Shown: positions 1,312 through 18,073 of the stretch, in pieces
Numbering within the stretch: the stretch's first letter is position 1
Layout of the letters: each line of letters starts with the position of its first letter
Assembly: GCF_018780585.1 (NCBI RefSeq)
Contig: NZ_JADMJL010000035.1
Span: forward strand, 1 to 64,000
Direction: 5' to 3'
Origin: Methyloversatilis discipulorum
GTDB taxonomy: Bacteria > Pseudomonadota > Gammaproteobacteria > Burkholderiales > Rhodocyclaceae
Length of the DNA stretch: 64,000 bases
Made by a program: the position numbers and the translations under genes
The notes under the pieces: model-generated
The model's input: the letters and a program-made list of their open reading frames with translations, nothing else
The model's database searches: none
What the model was told of the DNA's origin: nothing

Positions 1312-2481
1312 TTACGAGGCTTCGGCGGCGGGATCGAGGCAGCGGCGCACCTTGGCCAGCAGGCGCGCCTGGTCGACCGGCTTGACGATGAAGTCGAGCG
1401 CACCGGCCTCCTTCGACTGGATCACGATGCCGCGCTCGCTGTGCCCGGTCATGACGAGAATCGGGATGGCCGCGAGTTGCTCGACCGACTTGATGTGGCG
1501 CATGGCCTCGATGCCGCTCAGACCCGGCAGTTCGAGATCCATCAGGATGAGATCCAGATGATGCCTGCGCACCATGCCCAGCGCCTCCGGTCCGGAGGCG
1601 GCGAACAGCGCCTGCATGTCGTTCCTGATAAGCCAGTCGCCGATCAGCTTGCGCTGAAACTCGTCGTCATCGACGATCAGCACGACCGGGCGAAGCTGAC
1701 TGATCACCTCGGACAAGACCTGCGCCGATTTCAGTTGCGGCGACAGCGCCTGCCTGTATTCAGTCGCCCATTCCACTGCCTGCCCCATCGTTTCGGTGGC
1801 GCTGCGCAACTGCAGGTCGATGCCTTCGCTACGCAGTTGATCGACCTCTTGCGCGACCTTCGGGATGTCGCCCGCCTGAATGACCGATCTGTCGGCCAGC
1901 GTTTTCGGGAATCGCGCCAGCGCGGCACCGATGCGGTCTCCTGCCTCGTCCAGCGAGCGCCTGACCTGACTCATCTGGTCCTGTCCGCGCGACATGTAAC
2001 GTTCGAGCGTCGTCTCCAGTTCCGCGATGCGCCGCACGTGCTCGGCAAGCTCGCTCTGGCTGATCGGCAGCGAACGCTCGAACTCGATCTGGCGCATCGC
2101 GTGAAACACCGACATCGGCAGACGCGGCGTATCGTGGGTCAGCGGCCAGAACAGGATGTAGTCGTCGAAATACTCGCGCTTGCACAGTTCGTAGACACGC
2201 TTCAGGTCGTCCTTGTCACAGAGGATGACGGTGCGGTGGGGAATCGCCTGCACCACGGTGCTCAGGCGATAGAGACCGAGGTAGTAGCGCTCGGCTTTCT
2301 CCAGCGAGTTGAACGCGAGCAGCAGCACGTCGGGCTTGATCCGCTCGAAATCCTCGATGCTGCGGTCGGGGTCGGTCGACATGAATATCTTCTCGAACTC
2401 GTCGCGCAACAGCCTGCGCACCAGTTCGGCGTCGCTGACGATATCGCTCGCCACCAGAATGCGTAGGTCTTCCTTGTTCAT
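1312..2481 (-). CDS. Response regulator with a degenerate and a true receiver domain
   Basis: A 389-residue protein with no DNA-binding or enzymatic output domain. The C-terminal receiver (about 266-385) has the acidic pocket VDDDE, the phosphoacceptor D315 in LILMDLELPG, and the conserved Thr and Lys (LVMTG, FIVKPV). The N-terminal 120 residues have a receiver-like layout but a hydrophobic residue where the phosphoacceptor should be (DVLLLAFNS), so that copy is probably a pseudo-receiver used for binding. The middle (about 145-260) is helical and charged. The ATG at 2481 overlaps the upstream stop as ATGA, so it is translated with the REC-EAL gene and the giant kinase. It could act as a phosphate sink or an adaptor of that phosphorelay. 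Confidence 0.82.
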   Translation of the reverse strand: MNKEDLRILVASDIVSDAELVRRLLRDEFEKIFMSTDPDRSIEDFERIKPDVLLLAFNSLEKAERYYLGLYRLSTVVQAIPHRTVILCDKDDLKRVYELCKREYFDDYILFWPLTHDTPRLPMSVFHAMRQIEFERSLPISQSELAEHVRRIAELETTLERYMSRGQDQMSQVRRSLDEAGDRIGAALARFPKTLADRSVIQAGDIPKVAQEVDQLRSEGIDLQLRSATETMGQAVEWATEYRQALSPQLKSAQVLSEVISQLRPVVLIVDDDEFQRKLIGDWLIRNDMQALFAASGPEALGMVRRHHLDLILMDLELPGLSGIEAMRHIKSVEQLAAIPILVMTGHSERGIVIQSKEAGALDFIVKPVDQARLLAKVRRCLDPAAEAS

Positions 2482-3680
2482 GCCGTGTTCACCAGGAGCG
2501 TTCTTCGGGCTTCCCACTCGGCCATCCATTCCGGCAGGCGATCGGCAGGCATCGGTCGTGCGATGAAATAGCCCTGTGCGACGTCACAGCCCAGATCACG
2601 CAGGCACGCCCAGTCACCCGCCGTCTCGACGCCCTCTGCCACACTGCGCAGACCAAGCTGGCGGGCCATGTCCAGATTCGCGCGCAGAATGGCCAGCAGC
2701 TCCGCGTTCTCGCCGGCGCCACGCACGAAGCTGCGGTCGAGCTTGAGTTCGTCGAACGGAATGTCCCGCAGCTGCGCCAGCGACGAGAAGCCGGTTCCGA
2801 AATCGTCGATCGACAATCCGATGCGCTTCAGACGCAGCCGCGACACGATGTCGAGCAAGGACGGCGTATCGTGCATCAACTGACTCTCGGTCACTTCCAG
2901 CACCAGCTGCGCGATCGGCACGCCAGCGCGCGCAGCGGCGCTGGCCACCCGGTCGGGGAAGTCCAGCGCAACCAGGTTGTCCATCGACACATTGATCGCG
3001 CAGCGCAGCTCGAGCCCGCTCTCGTTCCACGAGCGCGTGTCGCGCAGCGCAACGTGCAGCACGGCATCGGTCAACTCTTCGATGACGCCGCCGCTCTCGG
3101 CTGCCGCAATGAACTGGTCAGGAAACACCAGCCCATCCTGCGGATGCGCCCACCGCACGAGCGTCTCCACGCCTACCACCCTGGCATCGGAAAAGGCGAC
3201 CTTCGGCTGATAGTGATTGACGATCTGTCCTTGCCGCACGGCTTGGCCCAGTTCCGCCGCCTCATACCGTTTGCGGAACTCGGGTTCGCTCCCGGACCGT
3301 GCACCGTCCGCGGCTGGCTGCAGCAGCGCGCGGATCGATTCCAGCGCCACCGGCTTGCGCAGCGTGCCCCACACCTGCAGTTGGCGTGCGGTCGCCAGAC
3401 GACGGACCGAATCGAGCACGCGCACGTCCTCGCCGCTGATCAGAACGAGGCCGCCCCGATAGCCGTGCCGCGACAGATGGCGCAGGAACTCGACACCATC
3501 CATGCCCGGCATGTTGAGGTCGCAGAACAGCACATCCACGCTGTCGATCTGCCCGTCTATCAGCGTCAGCGCGGCACTCGCGCTCTCACAGGCAAGCACG
3601 CCATCGACACCCAGCTGGGTCAGCTGGCGTGTCAGCAATCGCAGCGTGAAGCGGTCATCGTCGACGATCAGCACCCTCAT
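2478..3680 (-). CDS. Receiver-EAL response regulator (c-di-GMP phosphodiesterase)
   Basis: A 400-residue protein. An N-terminal receiver (1-120, phosphoacceptor D54 in LFCDLNMPG) is followed by an EAL domain (about 140-385). The signature reads ETL at 172-174 rather than EAL, keeping the essential Glu. The other catalytic elements are present: NVS, VTES, DDFGTGFSSL, LKLDRSF, EGVET and QGY. Such proteins hydrolyse c-di-GMP to pGpG, with activity set by phosphorylation. It overlaps the kinase gene at its start and the double-receiver gene at its end by 4 bp each, so the large kinase is the obvious phosphodonor. Active catalysis is likely but inferred from motifs. Confidence 0.88.
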   Translation of the reverse strand: MRVLIVDDDRFTLRLLTRQLTQLGVDGVLACESASAALTLIDGQIDSVDVLFCDLNMPGMDGVEFLRHLSRHGYRGGLVLISGEDVRVLDSVRRLATARQLQVWGTLRKPVALESIRALLQPAADGARSGSEPEFRKRYEAAELGQAVRQGQIVNHYQPKVAFSDARVVGVETLVRWAHPQDGLVFPDQFIAAAESGGVIEELTDAVLHVALRDTRSWNESGLELRCAINVSMDNLVALDFPDRVASAAARAGVPIAQLVLEVTESQLMHDTPSLLDIVSRLRLKRIGLSIDDFGTGFSSLAQLRDIPFDELKLDRSFVRGAGENAELLAILRANLDMARQLGLRSVAEGVETAGDWACLRDLGCDVAQGYFIARPMPADRLPEWMAEWEARRTLLVNTA

Positions 3681-6600
3681 GCCTGCGGCCTCCCCGAAAG
3701 TGTGTCGTCGAGGTGATTGCGTATTGCCTCTTCGGCGCGAGCCTGGATCGAATCCAGTCGCTTCACGCCCTGCTTGAGGTAAGCGATGCGCCCGCTCCTC
3801 GCCGCCCGTTCAAAGGTACCGCAGCACTCGGCCAGCTCGAGCGCACCGACCGAGCGGGCAGACGATTTCAGCTTGTGCGCAACGTGTGCCGCCCGGGCGC
3901 AGTCACCCACTTCGCAGGCCTGACGCAGCTCGCCCCACTGCGGCAAGGTCGTATCGAGATAGAAGGCGAGCAGCTCGCGTATCGACTCGTCGTCGTCGCC
4001 GATGATGGCGCGCATCGCATCCACGTCGAACACCGGCAGGTCGACCGGCTGATCCGATGCCGGCTCGGTACCCACAATGACCTGTTCGATCGCCACACGC
4101 AACTGTTCAAGCTTGAGTGGTTTGGTCAGATAGTTGTCGAAGCCCACCGCCCGTGCGCGCTCGTGTTCCCCGCGCAGTGCGTTCGCGGTCAGCGCGATGA
4201 TGGGCATGCGCCCTCCTTGCGCATCTCGCCCCGCCGCGGCCTCTTCGGCACGGATCGCACGCACGAGCGCATAACCATCCATCTCCGGCATGTGCAGATC
4301 GGTCAGCAGCATCGCGTAACGCGAACGCCGCCACATCGCCAGTGCCTCTGCGCCGTTCTGCGCGATTTCGGCCGTTCGCCCGAGCAATGCCAGCTGCTGC
4401 AGGATGACCTTGCGGCTGGTCGCATCGTCCTCGGCCACCAGGATGAGCTCGCCGCTGGCACGCGCCTGCTCGACCGTCGGCGCAGCCGGTGCGTCGGGAA
4501 CGTCGCTTGCGTGCTGCTCGTGCAGCACCTCGGCCGACTCCCGGCCGGTGGCTATCGCCACCGCCTGCAACAGCGAGCGCCGGCGCAGCGCCGAGTAGTC
4601 GAGACTCACCTTGTCGGCATCCGCAATGCGCGCGCGACGACGACGACCGCGGGTGATCAGGAGCTGCCGCACCTTCGTCTTCGTACCGTCGCCGACGTCC
4701 AGTGGAAGGGTCGCTCGCTCGACCGCCCGGATGACCACCACGTCCAGCCCGCCATCGCGCGCCCGGAGCACGGCCTCGGATTCGTCGGCCACGTCGTCGA
4801 CCCGGGCCCCGGCATGCAGAAGATAGTCGGCGAAACCGGGATCGTTCAGCACCCGGTCGACAACGATGCAGTGCGTGCCGCGCAGGTCCGGATAGTTCGG
4901 CGCCGGCATCTCCGGCGGCAGTGGGAAGGGAAGATGGGCAACGAAGGTCGAGCCCCGACCGGGTGCGCTGACCACCTGGATGTCGCCACCCATCAGCTCG
5001 ATCAGTCGCCGGCAGATGGTCAGACCCAGACCGGTCCCACCGTAGCGGCGCGAGGCCGAGTTCTCGCCCTGGTTGAACGGGCGGAACAGCAGCTGAAGCG
5101 TTTCCGGGGTCATGCCGATGCCATTATCGATCACGGTGAACGCCAGCCGCAGCGGCGACGCCTCCGCCCGCGTCACCCGCAACGCGACCTGCCCCTGCGG
5201 CGCACTGCGGCCAGCCGAGAACTTGATCGCATTACCAACGAGGTTGTACAGCACCTGGCGCAGGCGCACCGCATCGCCGAGCACGCACTCGGGCACCTCT
5301 GGCGAGACGATCACGCGCAGCTCGACGCCAGAGCGTTCTGCCAGCGGCAGCAGGGCGTCGCACACCCCCTCCGCGAGATCGATCACTGACAGCGGTTCGG
5401 ACAGAATCTCCAGCCGCCCCGCCTCGATCTTCGAGAAATCGAGGATGTCGTCGATCAGCCCCAGCAAGGTCTGGCCGGACTCGCGTGCAGTGCGGATCAT
5501 GTCGGCCTGCTGCGCCGTGAGCGGGCTGTGCGCCATCACCTCCAGCATGCCCAGCACACCATTCATCGGTGTGCGGATTTCGTGGCTCATGTTGGCGAGG
5601 AAGGCGCTCTTTGCCCTGCTTGCCTCCTCCGCCTGCTGCTGGGCGATGCGCAGTTCGGCGGTCCGGGCGACCACCAGCTCTTCCAGATGATCCTTGTAGC
5701 GGAGCACCTCGTTCTCGGCCTCATGCCGGCTGGTCACGTCGGTCCACGCGCCGACGATGCGCATCGGTTCGCCGTCGGGGTCTCGTTCCACCCGCATGTG
5801 ATCGTTGATCCAGATCCACCGTCCGTCGGCACCGCGGAAGCGGTACTCGTGCACGACGTGACCGGTGCGCAGCACCTCGCGCGTGTGGGCGATGGCGGCG
5901 TCGAGATCGTCCGGATGCACATTACTCCGCCACCAGTCCGGCGTGCGGGTCTGCTCGACCGGGTAGCCGAACAGCCACTCGATGTTGTCACTCACCCACT
6001 CCGGCTGTACCCGCTCACCTTCGACGGCCAGCGCGTAGGTCACGCCCGGGCTCACGCTCAGGTAATGGCTCAGGCGCGTGGCGACGGTGCGCAGCTCGTC
6101 CTCGACGCGCTTGCGCTCGCTGATGTCCGTCATGCCTCCCAGCATGCGCGTCGGCTGACCGTCCGGATCGCGGATGACGTAACCGCGGTCGACGACGTAG
6201 GCATAGCTGCCGTCGAGGCGGCGGAAGCGGTAGCTGTCCGACCACTGCTCACCGCCGTCGTCGATCACACGATGAATGCCTTCGGTCACCCGGTCGAGGT
6301 CGTCCGGGTGAATGCGCGAAGTCCACGACGAGATGGTCTTCTCGATGGTCAGCAGGTCGTAGCCGAACAGCTTCTCGAAACCATCGTTCCACCAGAGCGT
6401 GTCGTAGCGAAGATCCCAGTCCCAGATGGCGTCGTTGGTCGCGCGTGTCAGCCGACGGAAGCGCTCCTCGCTGTCGCGCACCGCCTGCTCGGCCACCTTG
6501 CGCTCGGTGATGTCGCGCTCTATCGCCAGCCAGTGCGTGTAGAAGCCGTGTTCGTCGGTGATCGGCACGATGTCCAGCTCGAGCCAGATCACCTCGCCGT

Positions 6601-9313
6601 TCTTGCGGTAGTTGATCACCTGCTCGCGCGCCGGCTGCCACTGCGCCAGCGCATCGCGCAGACGGCTCCGCACCTCGGGCTGGGTGGCCGGTCCCTGCAG
6701 CATGCGCGGCGTCATGCCGAGCGCCTCTTCGCGCGTGTAACCGGTGATGCGTTCGAAGGCCTCGTTGACGAAGTGGATGCGCGGCCCGTCCGGCGTGCCT
6801 ATCCCATCGGTGCCGGTGATCATGACAATGTCGCCCATGCGCGCGATGCACATCTCGAGCAGGCGCAACTGCTCCTCGTCCTTGTGCCGCTGCGACACGT
6901 CGAAAATGACGCCCTCGATGCTTCGCACCTGGCCGTCGGCATCGCGTATCCCCTGCCCGCGTTCCCACACCCAGCGTTCGCCGCCATCGGCGGCAAAGAT
7001 GCGGTAGGTCAGCTCGAACGCCCGGCGCTCGTCCAGCGCGCGCGACACGTCCTGTTGGACCCGCAGGCGGTCGGCCGGGTGTATCAGTTCAACGTAACGC
7101 CTGTGCTCGATGCCGACCAGTTCGGACGGCGCATAACCGGTCAGCGCATGGGCACCATCGCTGACGAATTCCATTGTCCAGCCGGCATCGGGTCGGCAGC
7201 GATAGACCATGCCGGTCAGGTTGCTCATCAGCGTCAGCATCTCGCGCCGGCTTTCCTGCAGCGCTTCGTCCGCCCGCTTGCGCTCCGAAATGTCCTGGAA
7301 GGCGCCCTGCACACGCACGATCTCACCGCGCTCGTTACGCACTGCCTCACCTATCGTGCGCACCCAGAGTACCTGCCCGTCGCGGCCGGCCGCCTGCAGC
7401 TCGACGTCGAACGGCACGCCGGTCTGCATACAGCGCTCGAATACCTCGCGGATCCACGGCTGGTGCTCGGGCACGTAGAGCTTCAGCCCCTCGGCCGCCA
7501 CCGGCATCTGCGATGACTGCAGTCCGAACAGGTCGCGCGCCTCGTCCGACCAGGTCATCGCAAGGCCCGGCACATCTATCGTCCACGCGCCCATCCGGCT
7601 GACGCGTGAGGCCATCGCCAGCAGGGCCTGGCTCTGCCGCAGCCGCGCCTCGGCTTCGCGCTGCTGTGTGATGTCCTCCGCGACGCCGATGATGCTGCGC
7701 GCAGTGCCGTCCGTGTCGCGCTGCATGGACACGCTCATACGCACCCAGACGATGCGGCCATCGGCGGCGATGCAGCGCTTCTCCGTGACGAAGCTGTCAC
7801 GCGCGCCACGATGAACCTCGTCCATCAGCGCACGATTGCGCGCCAGATCGTCGGCGTGCGTGATCGACAACAGCGTGCGCGCCTGCAGTTCCTCCTCGCC
7901 GTAACCCAGCATGCGCCGGTATGCCGCATTGGTAGCGATGAAGCGGCCTTCCAGCGTGGTGATCGCGATGCCGGTCGCGGCGTCCTCGAACACCTTGCGG
8001 AATCGCGCCTCGGTCGCGGCGATCGCCTCGCGCGCACGCTCCCGCTCGGTGATGTCCATCACCATGCCAAGTCGGCGCTCGGGACAGCCTTCGACGTCGA
8101 AGAGCACCTTGCCGCGCTCGTACATCCAGCGGATTTCGCCATCGGGGCGCCGGATGCGATAGGTGTTCTCGATCACCGGCGCTTCGGGCGTCACATCAGT
8201 GTTCGCGCAGGCCACGCGCGCACGGTCTTCTGGCAACACCATGTCGAGGAAGGCATCCATCGTCCCGGCAAACGCCTCCGGTTCGATGCCAAACAGCCGG
8301 CAGGTCTGCTGCGTCCAGGTCAGGCGGCCACTCGCCAGGTCAAAATCCCAGCTGCCCATGGAGGCGATCGCCTGCGCCTCGTCGAGTTGCGCGCGCATGC
8401 GCTCCGCCTGGCGCTGCGCACACTTCTGAGCGGTGATGTCGGTATGCGTGCCGACCATGCGCAGCGGCTTGCCGTCGGCGTCGCGCACCATCACCTTGCC
8501 GCGGCCGAGTATCCAGCGATCGCTGGCGTCGCTTGCCCGCATCCGGAACACGGCTTCGTAGAAAGGCGTGCGGCCCGCCAAGTGCTCGCGTACGCAGTGC
8601 AGCGTCTGTTCGAGATCGTCCGGGTGCACGCGCGACGACCAGGCATCCAGCGTGTGCGGAATGTCCGCCGGCGCGTGGCCGAGCATGGTGCACCAGCGAT
8701 CGGAGAAGAACACCTCGTCGGTCAGCACGTTCCAGTCCCACACGCCCTCGTCGCTCGCGTCGAGGGCGAACTGCCAGCGCTCCTCCAGCGCCTTCAGGGC
8801 GGCCTCGGTCCGAGCCTGCAAGTGCAGCTGGCGGCGCAACCGCATCTGCGTCATCACCTGGTCGGCCAGCGTGCGCAGTGCACGCCGCTGACGGTCATCC
8901 AGACTGCGGGGCGTCCAGTCGATCACACACAGCGTACCCAGCACCTCGCCATCGGGCGTGAGCAGCGGAGCGCCCGCGTAGAAACGGATGCCCGGCTCGC
9001 CGGTGACCAGCGGATTGTCGGCAAAGCGCGGATCGAGCGTCGCGTCCTTGACCTCCAGCAGATCGGGGGCATGCAGGGCATGGGCGCAGAACGCCACGTC
9101 GCGCGAGGTATGCGTGACCTCGATGCCAATGCGCGACTTGAACCACTGGCGCTTACCGTCGACCAGCGACACGAGTGCGACCGGCGTCCCGCACAGCTCA
9201 GCGGCCAGGCGCGTAATGTCGTCGAACGCCGCCTCAGGAGGCGAATCGAGGATATCGAGCTCGCACAGCGCACGGATGCGCGCCGGCTCGTTGGCGGGAA
9301 AGGCTGCTTTCAT
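3677..9313 (-). CDS. Giant hybrid sensor histidine kinase: GAF, eight PAS, HisKA, HATPase, REC, HPt
   Basis: A 1878-residue cytoplasmic kinase with no membrane segment. In order: a GAF domain (about 10-165), eight consecutive PAS/PAC modules (about 175-1210), HisKA ([10 protein letters not shown]), a HATPase domain ([25 protein letters not shown]), a degenerate receiver-like stretch (about 1480-1580), a receiver (about 1625-1750; [21 protein letters not shown]) and a C-terminal HPt domain with its histidine near 1813 ([10 protein letters not shown]). The chain suggests His-Asp-His relay to a separate receiver. The next two genes, REC-EAL and double REC, overlap it in series and supply such receivers. 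The signals are unknown; the many PAS modules suggest several inputs. It is unusually long for the family. Confidence 0.92.
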
Positions 9314-9578: not shown

Positions 9579-11588
9579 ATGTACTTCGATTCATGCACGA
9601 ATTGCGCTTGCGCTACCATCCGGTCGACACGTAGATCGAACGGAGTCGGAACGGGGAAGAACGGCGGCCACAAGCGCCCTGCAGTGTTGCGATGGATAGT
9701 GCTTGCGCTGTTCGTGCTCGCCGTTCTCGACATCCGCCTGTTCATGTTCGTCGACGCGGCACGCACGGAAACGCTGGAGCGTGCGCGCGACACGCTGCAT
9801 GTGAGCGTCGACGTCGTCGCGCAACGCATGGACCAGCACCTGGCGACCTATGACCGGCTGCTGTCCGGCATTGGCGAGGGCGTGCGGCTTCACGGCGGAA
9901 TTTCGGCCGCGCCGGATCTGACCCTGCACCGTCTGCTGGTCCGCCGACACGCACTCAACCCGGAACTACAATCGCTCTTCCTGGTGCGCCACGACGGCAC
10001 CCTGGCGGCGACGTCGCTCAGCTCTCCGCCCCCGGCGCTGGATGTATCGACACGGGACTATTTTCTGGCGCAGTCCGGATCGGGCGCCGACGAGCACCGG
10101 CTCTTCATCGGGCCGGCGATCGTCAGCAAACTGACCAACAGATACATCTTCCCGCTGAGCCGGCGGGTCGAGAACGACGGCAACCGCTTTCTCGGCGTGG
10201 CCGCAGCGGCCGTCGATCCGGAGCAGCTGACGACCCTGCTGAGCGAGCAGGGTCTGCCCGCTGCATACACGCTGTCCGTGTTCCTGCGCGACGGGCATCG
10301 GCTGGCCTGCCTGCCCCGCAGATCCGATTGCCTCGAAGGCACGGCCGGCGACATGCCCTTGTTCCGCACCCTGCTGCCCGCAGCCGCCGACGGCCTGTTC
10401 GCGCGCCAGGGCCTGCTCGACGAGCGTCCGGGCCCGGCCGCCTACGCAACATCCGACGCTTATGGCGTCGTCGTCACCGCCACTGCGGACGAAGGCATGC
10501 TGCTGCAGTCCTGGCGACGCAACCTTGGCGGTTACGTTGCCATGGCGGTGGCCAGCAACCTCGCGTTCGCGGGGCTGGCCTGGTTCGCCTTCCGCCAGGT
10601 GCAGCGCCGCCGGCTGGCTCTGCAACAGCTGGCCGACGCAAACCAGGAACTGGAGAACCGCGTCGCCCGCCGCACCGATCAGCTGCGGCGCAGCGAGGAC
10701 CGTGCGCGGACCTTCATGAACACCGCGCGCGACGCGGTGGTCGTCGTCGACAGCAACAGCTGCGTCGTCGAGTTCAATCGCGCGGCCGAAGTGCTGTTCG
10801 GCTACAGCGTCGACGAGGTCGCCGGGCGGCGGCTCGATATGTTGATGCCGCCATCCGAAGCGGCGACGCATCGACGCCATGTACAGGCAGCCAACGCCTC
10901 AGCCGAGGCACGCGCAATGAGCAGGGGGCGCGAGGTGACGGCCCGGCACAAGGACGGCCGAGAGTTTCCGATCGACGTCACCGTCGGCAGTTCGGGCGAC
11001 GGGGCGCAGAGTTTCCACGTCGGCATCATTCGCGACATCAGCAAGCGCAAGCGCCTCGAACTGGAACTGCAGCGGCAGGCGTCGACCGACGGTCTGACCG
11101 GCGTGCTCAACCGCCGCGCCTTCACCGCCGAAAGCGAGCGGCTGATATCGGTCGCGTTGCGCCACGGGCGGCCGCTGAGCCTGATGGTGATCGACGCCGA
11201 CCACTTCAAGAAGGTGAACGACGTGTTCGGCCATCCGACCGGCGACGCCGTGCTGAAAGCCCTTGCGCTCACGCTCGGGCAGGCGCTGCGCACCAGCGAC
11301 GTGCTCGGCCGTCTCGGCGGCGAGGAGTTCGGCATCGTGCTGCCGGAAACCGATGCGACCGGCGCGCGCGAGGTCGGCGAGCGACTGCTGCAGGCGGTGC
11401 GCGAGCGCCGGATCGAACACGACGGCCACACGCTGAACATCACCGTGAGCATTGGTGCGACCGTGCTCAGCGCCGGCGACGACAGTTTCGAATCGGCCTT
11501 CCTGCGCGCCGACCGGGCTCTTTACGAGGCGAAGCACGGAGGACGGGATCGCGTCGTGCTGGCGCTTGGCGAGCAGGCAACGGTGTGA
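9579..11588 (+). CDS. Membrane-bound Cache-PAS-GGDEF diguanylate cyclase
   Basis: A protein of up to 669 residues that makes c-di-GMP. A membrane segment (about 37-57) precedes a periplasmic Cache-like sensor region (about 65-305), a second membrane segment (about 312-335), a short coiled coil, a PAS domain (about 370-490) and a GGDEF domain. The active site GGEEF is intact at 580-584, and an RxxD inhibitory site (RTSD, 571-574) lies five residues before it, so product feedback is expected. The start is uncertain: no strong ribosome site precedes the ATG at 9579, and the first 35 residues look unlike the rest, so translation may begin later. It is divergent from the giant kinase gene, with a 265-bp gap holding nothing I recognise. 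Confidence 0.87.
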   Translation: MYFDSCTNCACATIRSTRRSNGVGTGKNGGHKRPAVLRWIVLALFVLAVLDIRLFMFVDAARTETLERARDTLHVSVDVVAQRMDQHLATYDRLLSGIGEGVRLHGGISAAPDLTLHRLLVRRHALNPELQSLFLVRHDGTLAATSLSSPPPALDVSTRDYFLAQSGSGADEHRLFIGPAIVSKLTNRYIFPLSRRVENDGNRFLGVAAAAVDPEQLTTLLSEQGLPAAYTLSVFLRDGHRLACLPRRSDCLEGTAGDMPLFRTLLPAAADGLFARQGLLDERPGPAAYATSDAYGVVVTATADEGMLLQSWRRNLGGYVAMAVASNLAFAGLAWFAFRQVQRRRLALQQLADANQELENRVARRTDQLRRSEDRARTFMNTARDAVVVVDSNSCVVEFNRAAEVLFGYSVDEVAGRRLDMLMPPSEAATHRRHVQAANASAEARAMSRGREVTARHKDGREFPIDVTVGSSGDGAQSFHVGIIRDISKRKRLELELQRQASTDGLTGVLNRRAFTAESERLISVALRHGRPLSLMVIDADHFKKVNDVFGHPTGDAVLKALALTLGQALRTSDVLGRLGGEEFGIVLPETDATGAREVGERLLQAVRERRIEHDGHTLNITVSIGATVLSAGDDSFESAFLRADRALYEAKHGGRDRVVLALGEQATV

Positions 11589-11644: not shown

Positions 11645-13465
11645 TCAGGCGCGGAAGCCGGAGGCGGCGCGCAGGGGCGCCGCGGCGGACGGATGGGTTT
11701 CCGCCGGCATCGGGTCGGTGGCCCCCATCCGTGCGGCGATCCATTGCGTGGCGGCCTGCGCGGTCAGCGGACGCGACCACAGGTAGCCCTGCCCCTTGTT
11801 GCAGTCCAGCGTCGCCAGCAGCGCCGCCTGACCTTCGGTCTCGATGCCTTCGGCGGTCGTGCTCATGCCGAGGCTGCGAGCAACGCGCACGGTGGCTTCT
11901 ATCAGTACCCGCTTGTGCAGATTGCTCTCGGCGTCGGCGACGAAGGAGCGATCGATCTTGACTGTGTCGATCGGCAGCTGGCCGAGACAGGCCAGCGAGG
12001 AATAGCCGGTGCCGAAATCGTCCAGCGCGAGCGCGAGGCCGAGCGCTTTCAGTTCGAGCAGGCGGGCGCGGATGTCGTCGCCCTGCGCCGCCATGCTTTC
12101 GGTCAGTTCCAGCTGCAGTGCCTGCGCCGGCAGGCCGCTCGATTCGAGCACGCGCGCGACCTGGTCGGTGATGGCGGCGTCCTGCAGTTGTGCACGCGAC
12201 AGGTTGACCGACACCATGCCGGGCGCCTGCGCGCCAAAACGGCGCTGCCACGCCGCCAGCTGTCGGCAGGCCGAATCGAGCACGAATTCGCCGACCGCGC
12301 CGATCAGGCCGCACTCCTCGGCAATCTCGATGAATTCGACCGGCGACACCAGACCGCGCTGCGGATGCTGCCAGCGGACCAGCGCCTCGAAGCCGGCGAC
12401 GCGACCGTCGGACAGCTCGACGATGGGCTGGTAGACGACGAACAGTTCGCTCTGTTCGAGCGCCCGCCGCAGTTCCACTTCGAGTGCGCCGCGGCGGGTC
12501 GCGATGTCCTTGATCGACGGCGTGAACAGCACGTGGCGTCCGCCGCCGGCGCGCTTCGCCTCCTGCATGGCGAGGCTCGCGTCCTGCAGCACGGCATTCG
12601 CTTCGGCCGCGGCATGATTTCCGGCGACGACGCCAATGCTGGCGGAAATATGAACCTCGACGCCGTCGATCAGATAGGGGCGGGACAGCGTGTCGATCAG
12701 CCGTTGCGCGATGCTGTGCACGTCCTCGCTGCCACGCAGGCCATCGAGCAGTACGACGAATTCGTCGCCGCCGAGGCGGGCCGTTGTATGCAGCGGCTCT
12801 CGCGCAGGGCCGACGGCATCGCGCTGACGCACGGTGCCATTCAGCCGCTCGGCCACCATGCGCAGCAGCCGGTCGCCACCGGCCTGCCCGAGCGTCAGAT
12901 TGACGCGATTGAAGCGGTCGCAGTTGATAAACAGCACGGCAAAGGTGGGGGCACCGCTGGCGTCAGGGCGCGCCAGCGCCTGCTGTATGCGCTCCAACAC
13001 GGCGGAGCGGTTGGGCATCAGCGTCAGGCTGTCGGTGCGCGAGGCGTCGCGCATCCGCGACGCCAGACGCTGTTGCTCCAGTTCGACCTCGTGCGTCACG
13101 TCATTGACGCAGCCCATGATGGTGTGGGCGTCGAGCCGCAGCAGACTGATGCCGAGCACGCGCCGGCCACCGGCCGTCGACCGCACCGGCATGCGCAGCC
13201 CCTCGCACACCAGCGCACCCGGCTCGATGGCGGCGTCGGCCATGGCGCGCAGATCCGGCGCCACCTCGTCCAGCACCTCGAACAGGTTGTCGAGATTGCC
13301 CTGCCGCGCCAGCGGCATCAGCAACTGCGCCGAGCGCGGATTCATCATCGTCACCGTGCCGTCGGGCCGGATCTGCAGCAGGCCGATCGGCGCCTGATAG
13401 AGGAACTGGATCAGCGCCTCATAGGCGGGCGGCTGCAGATCCTCTGGGTCGCTGTCCGGCTTCAT
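11645..13465 (-). CDS. PAS-GGDEF-EAL protein, probably a c-di-GMP phosphodiesterase
   Basis: A 606-residue cytoplasmic protein: N-terminal PAS-like domain (about 12-125), GGDEF domain (about 140-300) and EAL domain (about 315-590). The EAL half has all expected motifs (FEALVRW, NLSRAQ, LTES, DDFGTGYSSL, VKIDRSF, EGIET, QGY). In the GGDEF half the GGDEF box at 232-236 is intact, but the first metal-binding Asp of the usual DxD motif is Asn (N181 in FINCD) and no RxxD site is seen, so cyclase activity is doubtful. The start ATG overlaps the stop of the upstream GGDEF gene (ATGA), which also settles the start over a longer open frame running to 14134. Last gene of the PYP cluster. Confidence 0.88.
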   Translation of the reverse strand: MKPDSDPEDLQPPAYEALIQFLYQAPIGLLQIRPDGTVTMMNPRSAQLLMPLARQGNLDNLFEVLDEVAPDLRAMADAAIEPGALVCEGLRMPVRSTAGGRRVLGISLLRLDAHTIMGCVNDVTHEVELEQQRLASRMRDASRTDSLTLMPNRSAVLERIQQALARPDASGAPTFAVLFINCDRFNRVNLTLGQAGGDRLLRMVAERLNGTVRQRDAVGPAREPLHTTARLGGDEFVVLLDGLRGSEDVHSIAQRLIDTLSRPYLIDGVEVHISASIGVVAGNHAAAEANAVLQDASLAMQEAKRAGGGRHVLFTPSIKDIATRRGALEVELRRALEQSELFVVYQPIVELSDGRVAGFEALVRWQHPQRGLVSPVEFIEIAEECGLIGAVGEFVLDSACRQLAAWQRRFGAQAPGMVSVNLSRAQLQDAAITDQVARVLESSGLPAQALQLELTESMAAQGDDIRARLLELKALGLALALDDFGTGYSSLACLGQLPIDTVKIDRSFVADAESNLHKRVLIEATVRVARSLGMSTTAEGIETEGQAALLATLDCNKGQGYLWSRPLTAQAATQWIAARMGATDPMPAETHPSAAAPLRAASGFRA

Positions 13466-14772
13466 CGCACGGCCGCCGACTGAAGCGCCGGCTGCCAGCG
13501 CTCTACCCGGTTGCGGCCGCCGGCCTTGGCCGCATAGAGCGCCTCGTCGGCACGCTGCATCAGGGCATCGAAATCGCTCACGTCCGCATCCATCGTCGCA
13601 ACGCCGGCGCTGATCGTGTAGCGCACGGCCTGCCCGCCGACCTCCACCGCCTGCGACGCGAGCAGCTGGCACAGGCGCTGGGCGACGATCTCTGCGCCCT
13701 CCAGCGTGGTGTCCGGCAGCAGCACGACGAATTCCTCGCCACCGAAGCGCGCCAGCACGTCCATCGCGCGGAAGGTCGCGGTCATGCCGGCGGCGAGATG
13801 GCGCAGTACGGCGTCGCCGGCGGCATGTCCGTACTGGTCGTTGATGCGCTTGAAATGGTCGGCGTCTATCATCACCAGCGACAGCGGCCGCGGGAAGCGC
13901 GCCCAGCGCTGCATCTCCAGCTCGACCGCCTCGACGAAGGCGCGGCGGTTCAGCAGGCCGGTCAGGTGATCGCAGGACACCGCCTTCAGCAATGCTTCCG
14001 CCGCCTCGCGCCGGTCTGACACGTCGCGGATGATGAGGCTGTAGGCATGTTCGTCCGTCAGCGCGTCGTCGCGGTCGTGCAGCGGGGCGATCAGGCAGCT
14101 GCCCCAGTAGCGACCGGCATCGGCGCGCACGCACCAGCCCTCGTCCAGGCTCCAGCCGGTGCGGTCGGCCTCGTGCAGCCGGTCGAGCACACGCTGTTCG
14201 GAAATCGCGTCTTCAGGGTAGAACATCGACAGGCTGCGACCGATCACCTGGTCCTCGGTGAAGCCGGTGATGCGGGCGATGCTCGGGTTCCAGTCCTGCA
14301 CGCAGCCATGGTGGTCGAGCGATACCAGGGCGTAGTCGGTCAGGCCGATCGCCAGCGTGTTGATCCAGGCCTGGCTCTGGCGCAGTTCGCGGTCCCGGCG
14401 GACCGACTGCGTCACGTCGGAAATGACGGCCATCAGTCGCTCGGCGTCGAGCTTGAGCAGTGTCAGCGCCAGCACCTGGCTCTGTCTGCGGCCGGGCTGG
14501 CCGGTCGCGATGGGCACCTGCAGCGCGTCGCACACCGTGCCGTGCACGTCCGGAAAATCCTGCACCCGCTGTCGCAGGTCGGGCACTACGGCTTCCAGCG
14601 CGGTGAACAGATTGGCCAGCTGGCCGTCCGGGGAGAGCGGCATCAGCAGCTGTGCGCACAGCGGATTGATCATCGTGATCTCGCCATCCGCCAGCGTCTG
14701 TACAAGGCCTATCGGCGCCATGTACATGAACTGCAGCAGCGCTTCGTATTCCTCTTCTACCGGTGCGCTCAT
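13462..14772 (-). CDS. PAS-PAS-GGDEF diguanylate cyclase downstream of PYP
   Basis: A 436-residue cytoplasmic protein. The first PAS-like domain (about 8-125) is clearly paralogous to the N-terminus of the next gene (shared YEALxQFxYxAPIGL and NPxxAQLLMPL). A standard PAS domain follows (about 140-265), then GGDEF (about 270-430) with intact DADHFK metal site, GGEEF at 344-348 and an RxxD inhibitory site (RAMD, 335-338). It should make c-di-GMP. It starts 12 bp after the PYP stop codon and overlaps the EAL gene, so light receptor, cyclase and phosphodiesterase are probably on one transcript. Direct contact between PYP and the shared PAS domain is my inference. Confidence 0.9.
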   Translation of the reverse strand: MSAPVEEEYEALLQFMYMAPIGLVQTLADGEITMINPLCAQLLMPLSPDGQLANLFTALEAVVPDLRQRVQDFPDVHGTVCDALQVPIATGQPGRRQSQVLALTLLKLDAERLMAVISDVTQSVRRDRELRQSQAWINTLAIGLTDYALVSLDHHGCVQDWNPSIARITGFTEDQVIGRSLSMFYPEDAISEQRVLDRLHEADRTGWSLDEGWCVRADAGRYWGSCLIAPLHDRDDALTDEHAYSLIIRDVSDRREAAEALLKAVSCDHLTGLLNRRAFVEAVELEMQRWARFPRPLSLVMIDADHFKRINDQYGHAAGDAVLRHLAAGMTATFRAMDVLARFGGEEFVVLLPDTTLEGAEIVAQRLCQLLASQAVEVGGQAVRYTISAGVATMDADVSDFDALMQRADEALYAAKAGGRNRVERWQPALQSAAVR

Positions 14773-14784
14773 GCGTGCTCCGGC

Positions 14785-15177
14785 TCAGGTCTGGCGGTGG
14801 ACCAGCACATAGCGCAAGTCGCTGCCGGGTCGGGCGAGCAATCTGAGCTTCACCTTGACCGGGCGCATGCGCAGGGTCAGCACGTAGTCGATGGTGTCGT
14901 CGAGCACACTGCCGTCCTGCTGCGCGTCCTCGAAGCGCTGGGCAACCATGAAGTTGTTCATGCACGGCGCCACCACGGTGAACAGCGCGTGCCCGATCAC
15001 CCGATCGGGCGACAGGCCGGCGGCGGCCGATTCGAAGCGGTTGTAACGTCTGACCTGGGTTGCGTCGTCCATGCCGATGACGCCGAAGTCGAGGCTGTCG
15101 AGCTCGGCATCGCTGGCGCGGTCGAGATAGTCAAACAGTGCTGCATTGGAGAACGAGAGGGTCTGTTCCGTATTCAT
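14785..15177 (-). CDS. pyp: Photoactive yellow protein (PYP) blue-light receptor
   Basis: A 130-residue PAS-fold protein matching PYP along its whole length (family size about 125). C72 in VVAPC matches the chromophore-bearing Cys69 of Halorhodospira PYP; Y45 and E49 match Tyr42 and Glu46, which hold the p-coumarate phenolate. Y98 and M104 likely match Tyr94 and Met100. Thr50 and Arg52 are replaced by A53 and L55, which may shift colour or photocycle speed. The start ATG at 15177 is chosen for the AGGGAGC just upstream; an earlier in-frame start at 15207 lacks one. Chromophore genes lie directly upstream and c-di-GMP enzymes directly downstream. Confidence 0.93.
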   Translation of the reverse strand: MNTEQTLSFSNAALFDYLDRASDAELDSLDFGVIGMDDATQVRRYNRFESAAAGLSPDRVIGHALFTVVAPCMNNFMVAQRFEDAQQDGSVLDDTIDYVLTLRMRPVKVKLRLLARPGSDLRYVLVHRQT

Positions 15178-15260
15178 GGTGCTCCCTGGGTCGGTATCAA
15201 CGGACACCTTGAGGTGCGCCGGATGGCAATGCGGAGGCAGCGGACACTCCGGACAACGGA

Positions 15261-16514
15261 TCAGTTATCGGGAGTGCACCCGCGAACTTGAGGAGGCAAC
15301 GAGGGCGCGATCGGCCAATCGACCAGCTTGCCGCGGGCGTCTACCGGCAACTGGTCACCGAACGACCAGGCGCGTGGACATTCGGGTGCCGACAGGCGTT
15401 CCCTCACCCACGCTTCAAGTGCGGGCAGCAGCGCCGCCGGGGTGGCGCCTGCGTGCGGCACGACGAAGGCCTTCAGGCGTTCGCCCTCGGTCGGCGACAT
15501 GCGGCGTACCGCGCACGCCTCGACGAGCGGGTGTTCGAGCAGCACGTCGCGCACCCGCGCCGGAAACACGTTGATGCCCGCCACCTGCACCGCTTCGTCG
15601 CGTCGCCCGGCCAGGCGGAAGCGCCCGTCGGGCAGCCACTCGATCACGTCCTGCAGCACAGCTCGAAGCTCGCCACCGTCCGCCGTCGAGCGCACCAGTG
15701 CCGCGTCGTCGGCCACCGCGCGGCGCCAGTGCGGCATCAGCGCGTAGGGCGCGCCAGCGGCGTCGCGCCAGCCGATGCCGGCCGTCTCCGAACTGCCATA
15801 GATCTGCAGCAGACGCGCCAGCCCCTGCGCGCACAGCGCATCGGCCAGCGCATCCGGGCAGGGCGCGGTAGAGCTGCTACCGATGATGTCGGCAGGCAGC
15901 TGCGGACCGAAGCGGGCGAGCAGCGACCAGTGCGCCGGATGGCTCACCAGCAGATCGCCCGGCTGCAGCCGGGCGGCCAGCGCCTGCGGCGGCAGCGGCC
16001 GCACATCGACGACATCGTGCGTGCCCAGCCGGGGCGGCAGCAGGACGCCGAAGATGAAGCCATAGATGTGATGGACCGGCACCGCGACCAGCACCCGCCG
16101 GCGCGGCCCGATGTGGGCGGCCAGCGCATCGGCCTCCTCCTCCAGCATTGCCAGCGCGTGTGCGCACGCCTTCGGCATGCCGGTGCTGCCGGACGTGCGG
16201 AAGGTCAGGCGGCGGCCATCCTGCGCGAGGCCTTCGCGGGCCAGCGCGCAGTACTGACCGAAAGTACTCGCCGCCGGCAGCGCATCGATCACCGTGCTGT
16301 CGTGCAGCTGCAGCAGTTCGGCGATGGCGGCGGCCAGCGTATAGCGCTCCAGCGAATCGAGCCCGAAACCGCTGTCGTCGAACGCCATCGACGCCGACCA
16401 CGGCTGCGGCGGCAGCGGTGAGCCGCCGGGCCGCAGCCGTCGCACCTCGTCGGCGATCAGGTCGGCGAGCACGCGTTCCAGCGCCGGGCCGTCGGCGTGC
16501 CAAGGGGCGCTCAT
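15261..16514 (-). CDS. pcl: p-Coumarate-activating enzyme (4-coumarate-CoA ligase-like) for PYP chromophore
   Basis: A 417-residue AMP-binding enzyme. The adenylation core has the P-loop FRTSGSTGMPKA, YGSSETAG, the hinge GRRDEAVQVAGINVFP and the terminal catalytic Lys in DARGKLVDW. It should activate p-coumarate for attachment to PYP. It is much shorter than plant 4CL (about 540). The first 90 residues look like an acyl-carrier domain: a helix (11-28), then DSGFGLDSLE with S54 at the pantetheine position. The product could therefore be tethered rather than released as CoA ester; that is a hypothesis. Its ATG overlaps the ammonia-lyase stop (ATGA). The specific substrate is inferred from the PYP context. 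Confidence 0.85.
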   Translation of the reverse strand: MSAPWHADGPALERVLADLIADEVRRLRPGGSPLPPQPWSASMAFDDSGFGLDSLERYTLAAAIAELLQLHDSTVIDALPAASTFGQYCALAREGLAQDGRRLTFRTSGSTGMPKACAHALAMLEEEADALAAHIGPRRRVLVAVPVHHIYGFIFGVLLPPRLGTHDVVDVRPLPPQALAARLQPGDLLVSHPAHWSLLARFGPQLPADIIGSSSTAPCPDALADALCAQGLARLLQIYGSSETAGIGWRDAAGAPYALMPHWRRAVADDAALVRSTADGGELRAVLQDVIEWLPDGRFRLAGRRDEAVQVAGINVFPARVRDVLLEHPLVEACAVRRMSPTEGERLKAFVVPHAGATPAALLPALEAWVRERLSAPECPRAWSFGDQLPVDARGKLVDWPIAPSLPPQVRGCTPDN

Positions 16515-18073
16515 CCGTCCGACTCCAGCACGTCTGCTGCGCTGCCTGTGCGCAGCACGCCCACCAGCCGGGTCAGTTCATGGTCCAGCGCGCGGTCCTC
16601 GACCACCAGCGGAATGCAGGACTCGAGCCACGACTGGGTGTGCGCCAGCACCGGCGGCAGCGCACCGGCGTCGATGCGGCCGCGCAGCGCGACCGCCTGC
16701 CGGGCCGACACCAGCATCGCCGCCAGCACCTGTTCGCCCAGTTCGAGCACGCGCAGGCAGTCGCGCGCGGCGATCGTGCCCATGCTCACCTTGTCCTGGT
16801 TGTGGCATTCGGTCGAGCGCGAGAACACCGACGCCGGCAGGGTGGTCTTCAGCGCCTCGGCGGTCCACGCCGACACGGCGATCTGCAGCGCCTTCAGGCC
16901 GTGGTTCAGTGCGCCACGTTCGCCGGTGGCGGCGGTCAGGTTGTCGGGCAGGCCGTGGCTGAAGCGGCTGTCCACCAGCAGCGCGAGCTGGCGGTCCAGC
17001 AGGTCGAGCACATTGGCGACCGCGGCCTTCAGGCTGTCCATCGCGAACGCGACGTGACCGCCGTAGAAATGTCCGCCATGCAGCACGCGCCCGCTGTCCG
17101 GGTCGATCAGCGGATTGTCGTTGGCGCTGTTCAGTTCGTTCTCGATCAGCGTCCGCGTGAAGGGCAGCGCGTCTTCGAGCACGCCGATCACGTGCGGCGC
17201 GCAGCGCAGCGAGTAGCGGTCCTGCAGCCGTGCCGGATTGCGTGCCGTGCCGGCGTCGCAGGCGAGGTCGCGACGCAGCCGGCGGGCCACCGCCTGCGGT
17301 CCCGGATGCGGCTTGGCGGCGAACAGCAATGCGTCGAAGTGGTGCGGGTTGCCGGCGGTCGCGAACACGTTCAGCGCGGTCAGGCGGGTGGCGACCCGGC
17401 TGCAGCGGCGTGCCCGCTGCCAGGCGAGACAGGCCAGCGCGGTCATGACGGCAGTGCCGTTCATGATGGCGAGTCCCTCCTTCGGCTGCAGCGACAGCGG
17501 CTGGATACCGGCTTCGGCCAGCGCCTCGCGCGCCTGCATGCGCCGCCCTCGCCACAGCACGTCGCGCTCGCCGCACAGCGCGGCGGCGACGTAGGACAGC
17601 GGCGTCAGATCGCCGCTGGCGCCGACCGACCCTTCGGCTGGAATGCAGGGCAGGATGTCGTGCTCCAGCAGCGCCGCCAGATGCTGCAGCAGTGCGTAGC
17701 GCACACCGGACATGCCCTGGCACAGCGAGGCCAGCCGCGCGGCCAGCACCGCGCGCGTCTCGTCGGCCTCCAGCAGGCGTCCCATGCCGACGCCGTGATA
17801 GGTGTAGAGGTGGTGAGGCAGCTCCGCCACCTGCGCGGCGGGCACCGCCACTGTGCACGAGTCGCCGTAGCCGGTGGTGACGCCGTAGATCACGCCGTCG
17901 TCGGCGAGCAGCTGCAGCACGACGCGGGCGCCGGCGTCGATGCGGGCGCGGAAGGCTGTCTCGGTCGACAGTACGGCGCGACGCCTGCCGTCGGCGATGC
18001 CGGCGATCGCCTCGATGTCGAGCGGGCGACCGTCGAAAACGACGTCATCGTGTTCCGGTGCGGCAGCGGTCAT
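16511..18073 (-). CDS. tal: Tyrosine ammonia-lyase (HAL/PAL family), p-coumarate synthesis
   Basis: A 520-residue MIO-dependent lyase that would convert tyrosine to p-coumarate. The prosthetic group forms from Ala-Ser-Gly in VGASGDLTPLSY. The active-site loop IYGVTTGYGD is present. The selectivity position reads HHL (ELPHHLYTYHG), as in bacterial tyrosine lyases where His-Leu favours tyrosine, rather than the phenylalanine or histidine types. The start at 18073 is supported by AGGGATC upstream; the frame is open to 18148. It overlaps the ligase gene by 4 bp. Histidine ammonia-lyase is the main alternative, but no hut genes are nearby and PYP follows. Confidence 0.9.
   Translation of the reverse strand: MTAAAPEHDDVVFDGRPLDIEAIAGIADGRRRAVLSTETAFRARIDAGARVVLQLLADDGVIYGVTTGYGDSCTVAVPAAQVAELPHHLYTYHGVGMGRLLEADETRAVLAARLASLCQGMSGVRYALLQHLAALLEHDILPCIPAEGSVGASGDLTPLSYVAAALCGERDVLWRGRRMQAREALAEAGIQPLSLQPKEGLAIMNGTAVMTALACLAWQRARRCSRVATRLTALNVFATAGNPHHFDALLFAAKPHPGPQAVARRLRRDLACDAGTARNPARLQDRYSLRCAPHVIGVLEDALPFTRTLIENELNSANDNPLIDPDSGRVLHGGHFYGGHVAFAMDSLKAAVANVLDLLDRQLALLVDSRFSHGLPDNLTAATGERGALNHGLKALQIAVSAWTAEALKTTLPASVFSRSTECHNQDKVSMGTIAARDCLRVLELGEQVLAAMLVSARQAVALRGRIDAGALPPVLAHTQSWLESCIPLVVEDRALDHELTRLVGVLRTGSAADVLESDG

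Follow-up and report, generated by a model that had tools for sequence, protein, structure and literature searches.

Photoactive yellow proteins (PYPs) are among the best studied photoreceptors and have been divided into clades A, B and C (Xing et al., 2022, PMC9664959; this article, PMC12826048 and PMC13250908 are cited here for passages of their text). Clade C PYPs, found mostly in Proteobacteria and especially in Burkholderiales, had no characterised member at that time; conservation of Phe92, Phe96 and Trp119 is lost in this clade and Met100 is kept, and its PYPs often adjoin GGDEF proteins, EAL proteins being named as well (PMC9664959). Among 113 pyp operons, GGDEF was reported in 29, EAL in 22, pCL in 42 and TAL in 7, and blue light lowers biofilm in Idiomarina loihiensis (Dohmen et al., 2025, PMC12826048). 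For the PYP discovered first, no signalling partner has ever been established (PMC9664959), which was still so in 2026 (PMC13250908). Here we describe a clade C pyp cluster in a 64,000-nucleotide stretch of the Methyloversatilis discipulorum genome (contig NZ_JADMJL010000035.1, positions 1 to 64,000; hereafter the window), in which a predicted diguanylate cyclase and a predicted cyclic di-GMP (c-di-GMP) phosphodiesterase begin with the same N-terminal domain (NTD), through which the PYP probably signals.

Five genes, tal, pcl, pyp, PAS-GGDEF and GGDEF-EAL, form one run, in this order, on the minus strand:

18073-16511, minus: tal, 520 aa; Lyase_aromatic (PF00221), 519.9 bits; predicted tyrosine ammonia-lyase
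16514-15261, minus: pcl, 417 aa; AMP-binding and AMP-binding_C; TIGR02372, 328.6 bits; predicted p-coumarate-CoA ligase
15177-14785, minus: pyp, 130 aa; TIGR02373, 80.8 bits; clade C type photoactive yellow protein
14772-13462, minus: NTD-PAS-GGDEF, predicted diguanylate cyclase, 436 aa; Pfam GGDEF, 156.9 bits, and PAS
13465-11645, minus: NTD-GGDEF-EAL, predicted c-di-GMP phosphodiesterase, 606 aa; EAL, 241.8 bits, and GGDEF, 109.4 bits
14392-14772, minus: NTD copy 1, head of the cyclase; PAS fold predicted; no Pfam match; candidate receiver for PYP
13067-13441, minus: NTD copy 2, head of the phosphodiesterase; 46% identity to copy 1

The coordinates, gene order, strand, overlaps and gap given in the original prediction, a note made from these letters, were all exact on recheck. 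The overlaps of tal with pcl (16511-16514) and of the GGDEF with the EAL gene (13462-13465) are of 4 bp each, both ATGA; 12 bp (14773-14784) separate pyp from the cyclase gene, and 83 bp separate pcl from pyp. A scan of the cluster found no consensus promoter, the promoter and terminator scan being uninformative. The genome holds a single pyp, and a single aromatic lyase of the tal kind was found. Since order and strand are kept in 7 of 13 Methyloversatilis genomes, namely in all that carry this pyp, the five-gene arrangement is not due to chance. Three of these seven clusters (window included) have the window's flanking genes, neither of which was seen in the sequence fetched around the other four. 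A cyclase with full identity over the 130 residues searched carries the name Methyloversatilis sp., and the named pyp loci closest to that of the window, at 82-86%, are likewise from Methyloversatilis (among 80 loci of 94 relatives). The cluster is real, conserved and of a known kind.

Clade, neighbours and proposed output are the same as for the clade C PYPs of Xing et al. (2022), but here the run of genes includes tal and pcl as well; the pyp operons of Dohmen et al. (2025) have like parts, but all five genes on one strand are not described in the passages of PMC12826048. Nor is the NTD described in the passages of either article, although it may be noted in a 2012 PYP survey or in supplements. 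A single-domain PYP is likewise proposed to control an adjacent GGDEF cyclase in I. loihiensis, but that PYP belongs to clade A. The H. halophila pyp-pcl-tal operon also joins receptor and pigment genes, but its three genes include none for c-di-GMP (PMC12826048), and its PYP is of another clade. Ppd of Thermochromatium tepidum (PYP-phytochrome-GGDEF/EAL) likewise couples PYP to c-di-GMP enzymes, in one polypeptide with a phytochrome, whereas the window system consists of separate proteins. The gene identities and the light-controlled c-di-GMP output put forward in the original prediction stand as predictions; its claim that the coupling of pyp to a cyclase/phosphodiesterase pair is novel does not, and we rejected it, since this link is already in print (PMC9664959, 2022; PMC12826048, 2025). 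The domain common to both output enzymes, missed in that note, is the more informative feature, and within the literature searched the shared NTD and its close association with clade C pyp appear new; a search for PYP with Methyloversatilis or Massilia found no paper.

The N-terminal domain and its linkage to clade C pyp

The NTD comprises the first ~125 aa of both the cyclase and the phosphodiesterase, its copies being 46% identical over 121 aa, and occurs in the M. discipulorum genome in two places, both adjoining pyp. A Pfam scan of 30 NTDs gave no significant family (best E 0.062; PAS_4 was reached by one of the 30, at E 0.094). AlphaFold2 predicts a PAS fold (predicted local distance difference test, 88.9), and the PDB matches listed by Foldseek for this model are mostly PAS proteins. 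Behind clade C pyp, the NTD heads cyclases, phosphodiesterases and histidine kinases. Pfam shows no GGDEF or EAL domain in the three histidine kinases scanned, and no second PAS domain in either these or the window phosphodiesterase, which leaves the NTD as the one domain shared by all three output kinds. When the NTD of a kinase was used as a protein query, 76 proteins were obtained; by our own count, 20 carry histidine kinase domains. Such kinases stand second behind clade C pyp in L058 (11152-12570) and L071 (11151-12539), and first in L105 (1195-2442) and L152 (5202-6467), the PYP of L152 having lost Tyr42 and Glu46.

The named genomes were scanned from a clade C PYP query, which yielded the 80 loci mentioned above; because of this query, the linkage seen in all 80 holds for clade C only, and the domain classes were assigned with profiles built from those same loci. 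In 80/80 an NTD-bearing frame starts 0-180 bases after the pyp frame. An NTD-GGDEF protein is followed by an NTD-GGDEF-EAL protein in 47 loci, the sole NTD protein is NTD-GGDEF in 15 and NTD-GGDEF-EAL in 8, NTD-GGDEF-EAL precedes an NTD histidine kinase in 2, and an NTD histidine kinase stands alone in 1; of the remaining seven, two have frames with two NTDs, in two the first gene lacks GGDEF, one set is frame-broken, one has the pyp-NTD module in duplicate and one has a second NTD-GGDEF frame. The NTD-PAS frames without GGDEF (L079, 9391-10224; L083, 9132-10202) and the frames with two NTDs ahead of one GGDEF-EAL (L087 and L106) are possibly natural deletions between two NTD genes. We also observed clade C modules on contigs labelled Pseudohongiella (L074), Gemmatimonadaceae (L078) and Archangium (L105), by horizontal transfer or because the contigs were misbinned.

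Presence and absence within genera follow the same pattern. For the own genus, a second genus (g61) and a phylum sample, PYP was searched with a profile; for an order sample of 399 genomes, which includes a third genus (g36, whose genomes carry the handles of that sample), it was searched with one PYP. In Methyloversatilis, a clade C PYP and two NTDs each occur in the same 7 of 13 genomes and neither in the other 6, among which G746 gave a PYP match of 27.7 bits only. Both are present in 53 of the 62 g61 genomes, neither in 8, and the NTD only in 1 (G729), where the contig, of 3,683 bases, breaks off within the NTD; apart from the two NTD places of G729, all those of this genus (102 of 104) lie at most 1,437 bases from pyp and share its strand. 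Fisher's p for this co-occurrence is 2.7e-9, which overstates the evidence because the genomes are related. Genus g36 has both in 4/12 genomes, neither in 7/12 and a relic in 1/12.

The order sample contains the NTD in 12 genomes: 11 with a PYP match at E <=1.9e-32, plus G193, which has a short, broken piece. Of the 24 NTD places in this sample, 22 adjoin a PYP match by coordinates, the exceptions being that of G193 and the intact NTD-PAS-GGDEF gene of G164; no NTD was found in G363, G024 and G125, which have weak PYP matches. Strong NTD matches were obtained in 2 of the 299 genomes of the phylum sample (at most 14 first-look candidates scored per genome), the same 2 that carry a clade C PYP, and five others reached 21-28 bits, which corresponds to general PAS similarity.

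A plasmid search from the NTD found 11 records, 11/11 with pyp. The listed NTD directly follows the listed pyp in 10 of them; NZ_CP071131 has the NTD in two places, and the one listed is 1.5 kb further on. Two further plasmids have a PYP without NTD, one of H. halophila type and one clade C-like (CP099603, L154), with a BLUF gene near the latter PYP. The PYP genes of plasmid matches H12-H15 and H22 are labelled phosphonate transporter in public records. The NTD is the next gene for none of nine H. halophila-type PYPs (L052, L062, L121, L145-L147 and L155-L157), whose next recognised gene is pcl (~1.2 kb on in L121), and none was found within 20 kb of eight second PYPs in g61, of which L145-L147 were read and are all of H. 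halophila type. The NTD therefore looks specific to clade C PYP.

The receptor, its pigment genes and the two c-di-GMP enzymes

The window pyp encodes a photoactive yellow protein of clade C type, for which a holo-protein and a photocycle are predicted. Tyr42, Glu46 and Cys69 (H. halophila numbering) are kept, Phe92 is replaced by Ile and Phe96 by Leu, and Met100 is retained, in agreement with the clade C pattern of PMC9664959; there is no Trp near the end, the alignment column for position 119 being off by one. Searched with 125 of its 130 residues, the protein scores below the curated cut-off of NCBIfam TIGR02373 (80.8 against 143.05 bits); this model covers ~20% of PYP homologs (PMC9664959). 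Tyr42, Glu46 and Cys69 are present in 82/82 aligned clade C PYPs, window included, Cys69 being part of the pattern by which the 82 were selected, and all PYP matches in the 80 loci are of clade C or H. halophila type. Compared with the nine H. halophila-type PYPs, clade C PYPs have two fixed clade-specific stretches, residues 73-81 and 100-114 of the window PYP, which are therefore the first candidates for a binding face.

The tal product has the Ala-Ser-Gly triad of the MIO group (GASGD) and belongs to the aromatic lyase family. Its best NCBIfam match is the tyrosine ammonia-lyase model (TAL 408 against HAL 397 bits, both below cut-off), and in the alignment it has a His in common with tyrosine aminomutase. 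It is predicted to be an aromatic amino-acid ammonia-lyase with tyrosine as substrate. The pcl product matches TIGR02372 (4-coumarate-CoA ligase) 6 bits under the cut-off of 334.7, the next family scoring 85 bits. The original prediction took chromophore genes to be the usual neighbours of pyp and GGDEF/EAL genes to be the notable ones, which is reversed in the 80 clade C loci: a lyase gene lies within reach in 5 and a ligase gene in 17 (flanks <=9 kb, shorter at contig ends), so that tal is the unusual part of the Methyloversatilis cluster and pyp is as a rule linked to GGDEF, EAL or kinase genes.

Cyclase and phosphodiesterase activities are predicted from motifs. The cyclase has the diguanylate cyclase active-site motif, as GGEEF, and an RxxD inhibition site (RAMD), and the phosphodiesterase has an EAL domain with an intact EAL motif. 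Across the loci, the EAL motif is intact in 61/61 NTD-EAL frames, GGEEF is found in 59 of 65 cyclase frames (one has GGDEF and five were unmatched by the pattern), and RxxD in 55 of the 60 pattern-matched ones. The GGDEF domain of the phosphodiesterase is intact in 31 of 61 frames, altered in 17 and unmatched in 13.

Proposed signalling through the NTD and the rival explanations

Since it was found almost only beside clade C pyp in the genomes searched, the NTD is likely the partner that receives the light signal. We give a probability of roughly 0.6 to PYP signalling through this one PAS-fold domain at the head of both the cyclase and the phosphodiesterase. That the NTD is the partner of single-domain clade C PYP in general, a dedicated light port on cyclases, phosphodiesterases and kinases by which two opposed enzymes are driven at once, seems to us about an even chance. 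In such a pathway, TAL would convert tyrosine to p-coumarate, PCL would activate it, and the activated p-coumarate would be attached to Cys69 of PYP; blue light would isomerise the chromophore and alter the PYP surface, and PYP would then bind or release the NTD on both enzymes, with opposite shifts, so that one receptor pool would set net c-di-GMP. Light might be expected to lower c-di-GMP, a direction guessed from the effect of blue light on biofilm in I. loihiensis. The NTD offers a concrete candidate for the old question of the target of soluble PYP, and a means to annotate PYP pathways in genomes; if it binds PYP, the pair would provide a compact blue-light switch, made of two parts, by which c-di-GMP or kinases could be controlled.

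Several results weigh against this reading. G164 (68% complete) fits it worst, having an intact NTD-PAS-GGDEF gene without pyp in the 12 kb fetched and, beside an NTD kinase, a PYP that has lost Tyr42 and Glu46, its second copy being broken; G193 holds an NTD relic, and the clade C-like PYP of plasmid CP099603 (244627-245013), in which the conserved Pro68 is replaced by Val, has no NTD neighbour. PYP and NTD modelled as one joined chain (intervening stop read as Gly; 15 paired and 20 unpaired rows) gave two good domains but a predicted template modelling score of 0.58, a value at which no PYP-NTD docking can be claimed. Over 47 loci, PYP distances correlate less with those of the cyclase NTD (0.61) than with those of its GGDEF (0.68) and second PAS (0.68) domains, and the resampled differences (-0.12 to -0.01 against GGDEF and -0.17 to -0.01 against the second PAS) exclude zero; for the phosphodiesterase, also over 47 loci, the correlation is 0.61 for the NTD and 0.55 for EAL, with an interval that spans zero. 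Such correlations reflect common ancestry for the most part, but the NTD does not stand out in them. Finally, the linkage by itself might be due to the genes being inherited as one cassette.

The closer tracking of PYP by the second PAS and GGDEF domains is what would be expected if PYP regulated the neighbouring cyclase and phosphodiesterase through the second PAS, GGDEF or EAL domain, with the NTD merely shaping dimers. PAS domains commonly dimerise. We nevertheless find this rather unlikely, as by Pfam the NTD alone is common to cyclases, phosphodiesterases and kinases. The NTD could also couple the cyclase to the phosphodiesterase in a hetero-oligomeric, bifunctional complex and not have PYP as its ligand, which would suit its presence on both enzymes and the 4-bp overlap of their genes; this is quite unlikely in view of the 26 of 80 loci in which pyp is followed by a single NTD-bearing frame (some of them close to the end of a contig), and of the joint presence or absence of NTD and clade C PYP in three genera.

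An improbable explanation is that the linkage reflects cassette inheritance only, PYP acting for example on transcription and the NTD sensing a ligand of its own. The genes are indeed present or absent together within genera, and one AraC-PYP fusion exists (P0121, 509 aa), the single match among 955 candidates in a search for clade C PYP in proteins of ~354-1127 aa, but the outputs vary (GGDEF, EAL or kinase) while PYP and NTD remain paired. P0121 is itself a possible direct light-controlled transcription factor. It is highly improbable that PYP is light-insensitive here for lack of a genuine tyrosine ammonia-lyase or of loading of the receptor: lyase and PYP score under their NCBIfam cut-offs, and the sequence alone does not tell the specificity of the lyase, but the key residues are kept in all 82 PYPs, pcl adjoins, and the TIGR02373 model has the narrow coverage given above.

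Origin of the cluster and neighbouring genes

Clade C modules also occur beside a second receptor. A Methylibium metagenome-assembled genome (L062) has tal, a clade A-type pyp, pcl, a clade C pyp, cyclase and phosphodiesterase, and an Indioceanicola plasmid (L157) has a clade A-type pyp, pcl, a lyase, a clade C pyp and NTD-GGDEF. From these gene orders, the Methyloversatilis cluster may be a two-receptor cluster that has lost its clade A pyp. Together with L052 and L156, the two form a set of two-receptor clusters in which an H. halophila-type pyp and pcl (with tal in 3/4) lie near a clade C pyp and an NTD protein. Another arrangement was observed in G125 (C1, 133926-137361; L012, L017, L019 and L020), where four PYP-like matches stand in a row beside a pcl-like frame; two of these were aligned, and both are without the conserved Pro ahead of Cys69.

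Near the cluster in the window lie a response regulator with EAL (2478-3680, minus strand), a hybrid histidine kinase of 1,878 aa that combines GAF and many PAS domains with receiver and Hpt domains (3677-9313, minus strand) and a dCache-PAS-GGDEF cyclase (9579-11588, plus strand), so that several c-di-GMP genes are gathered around it.

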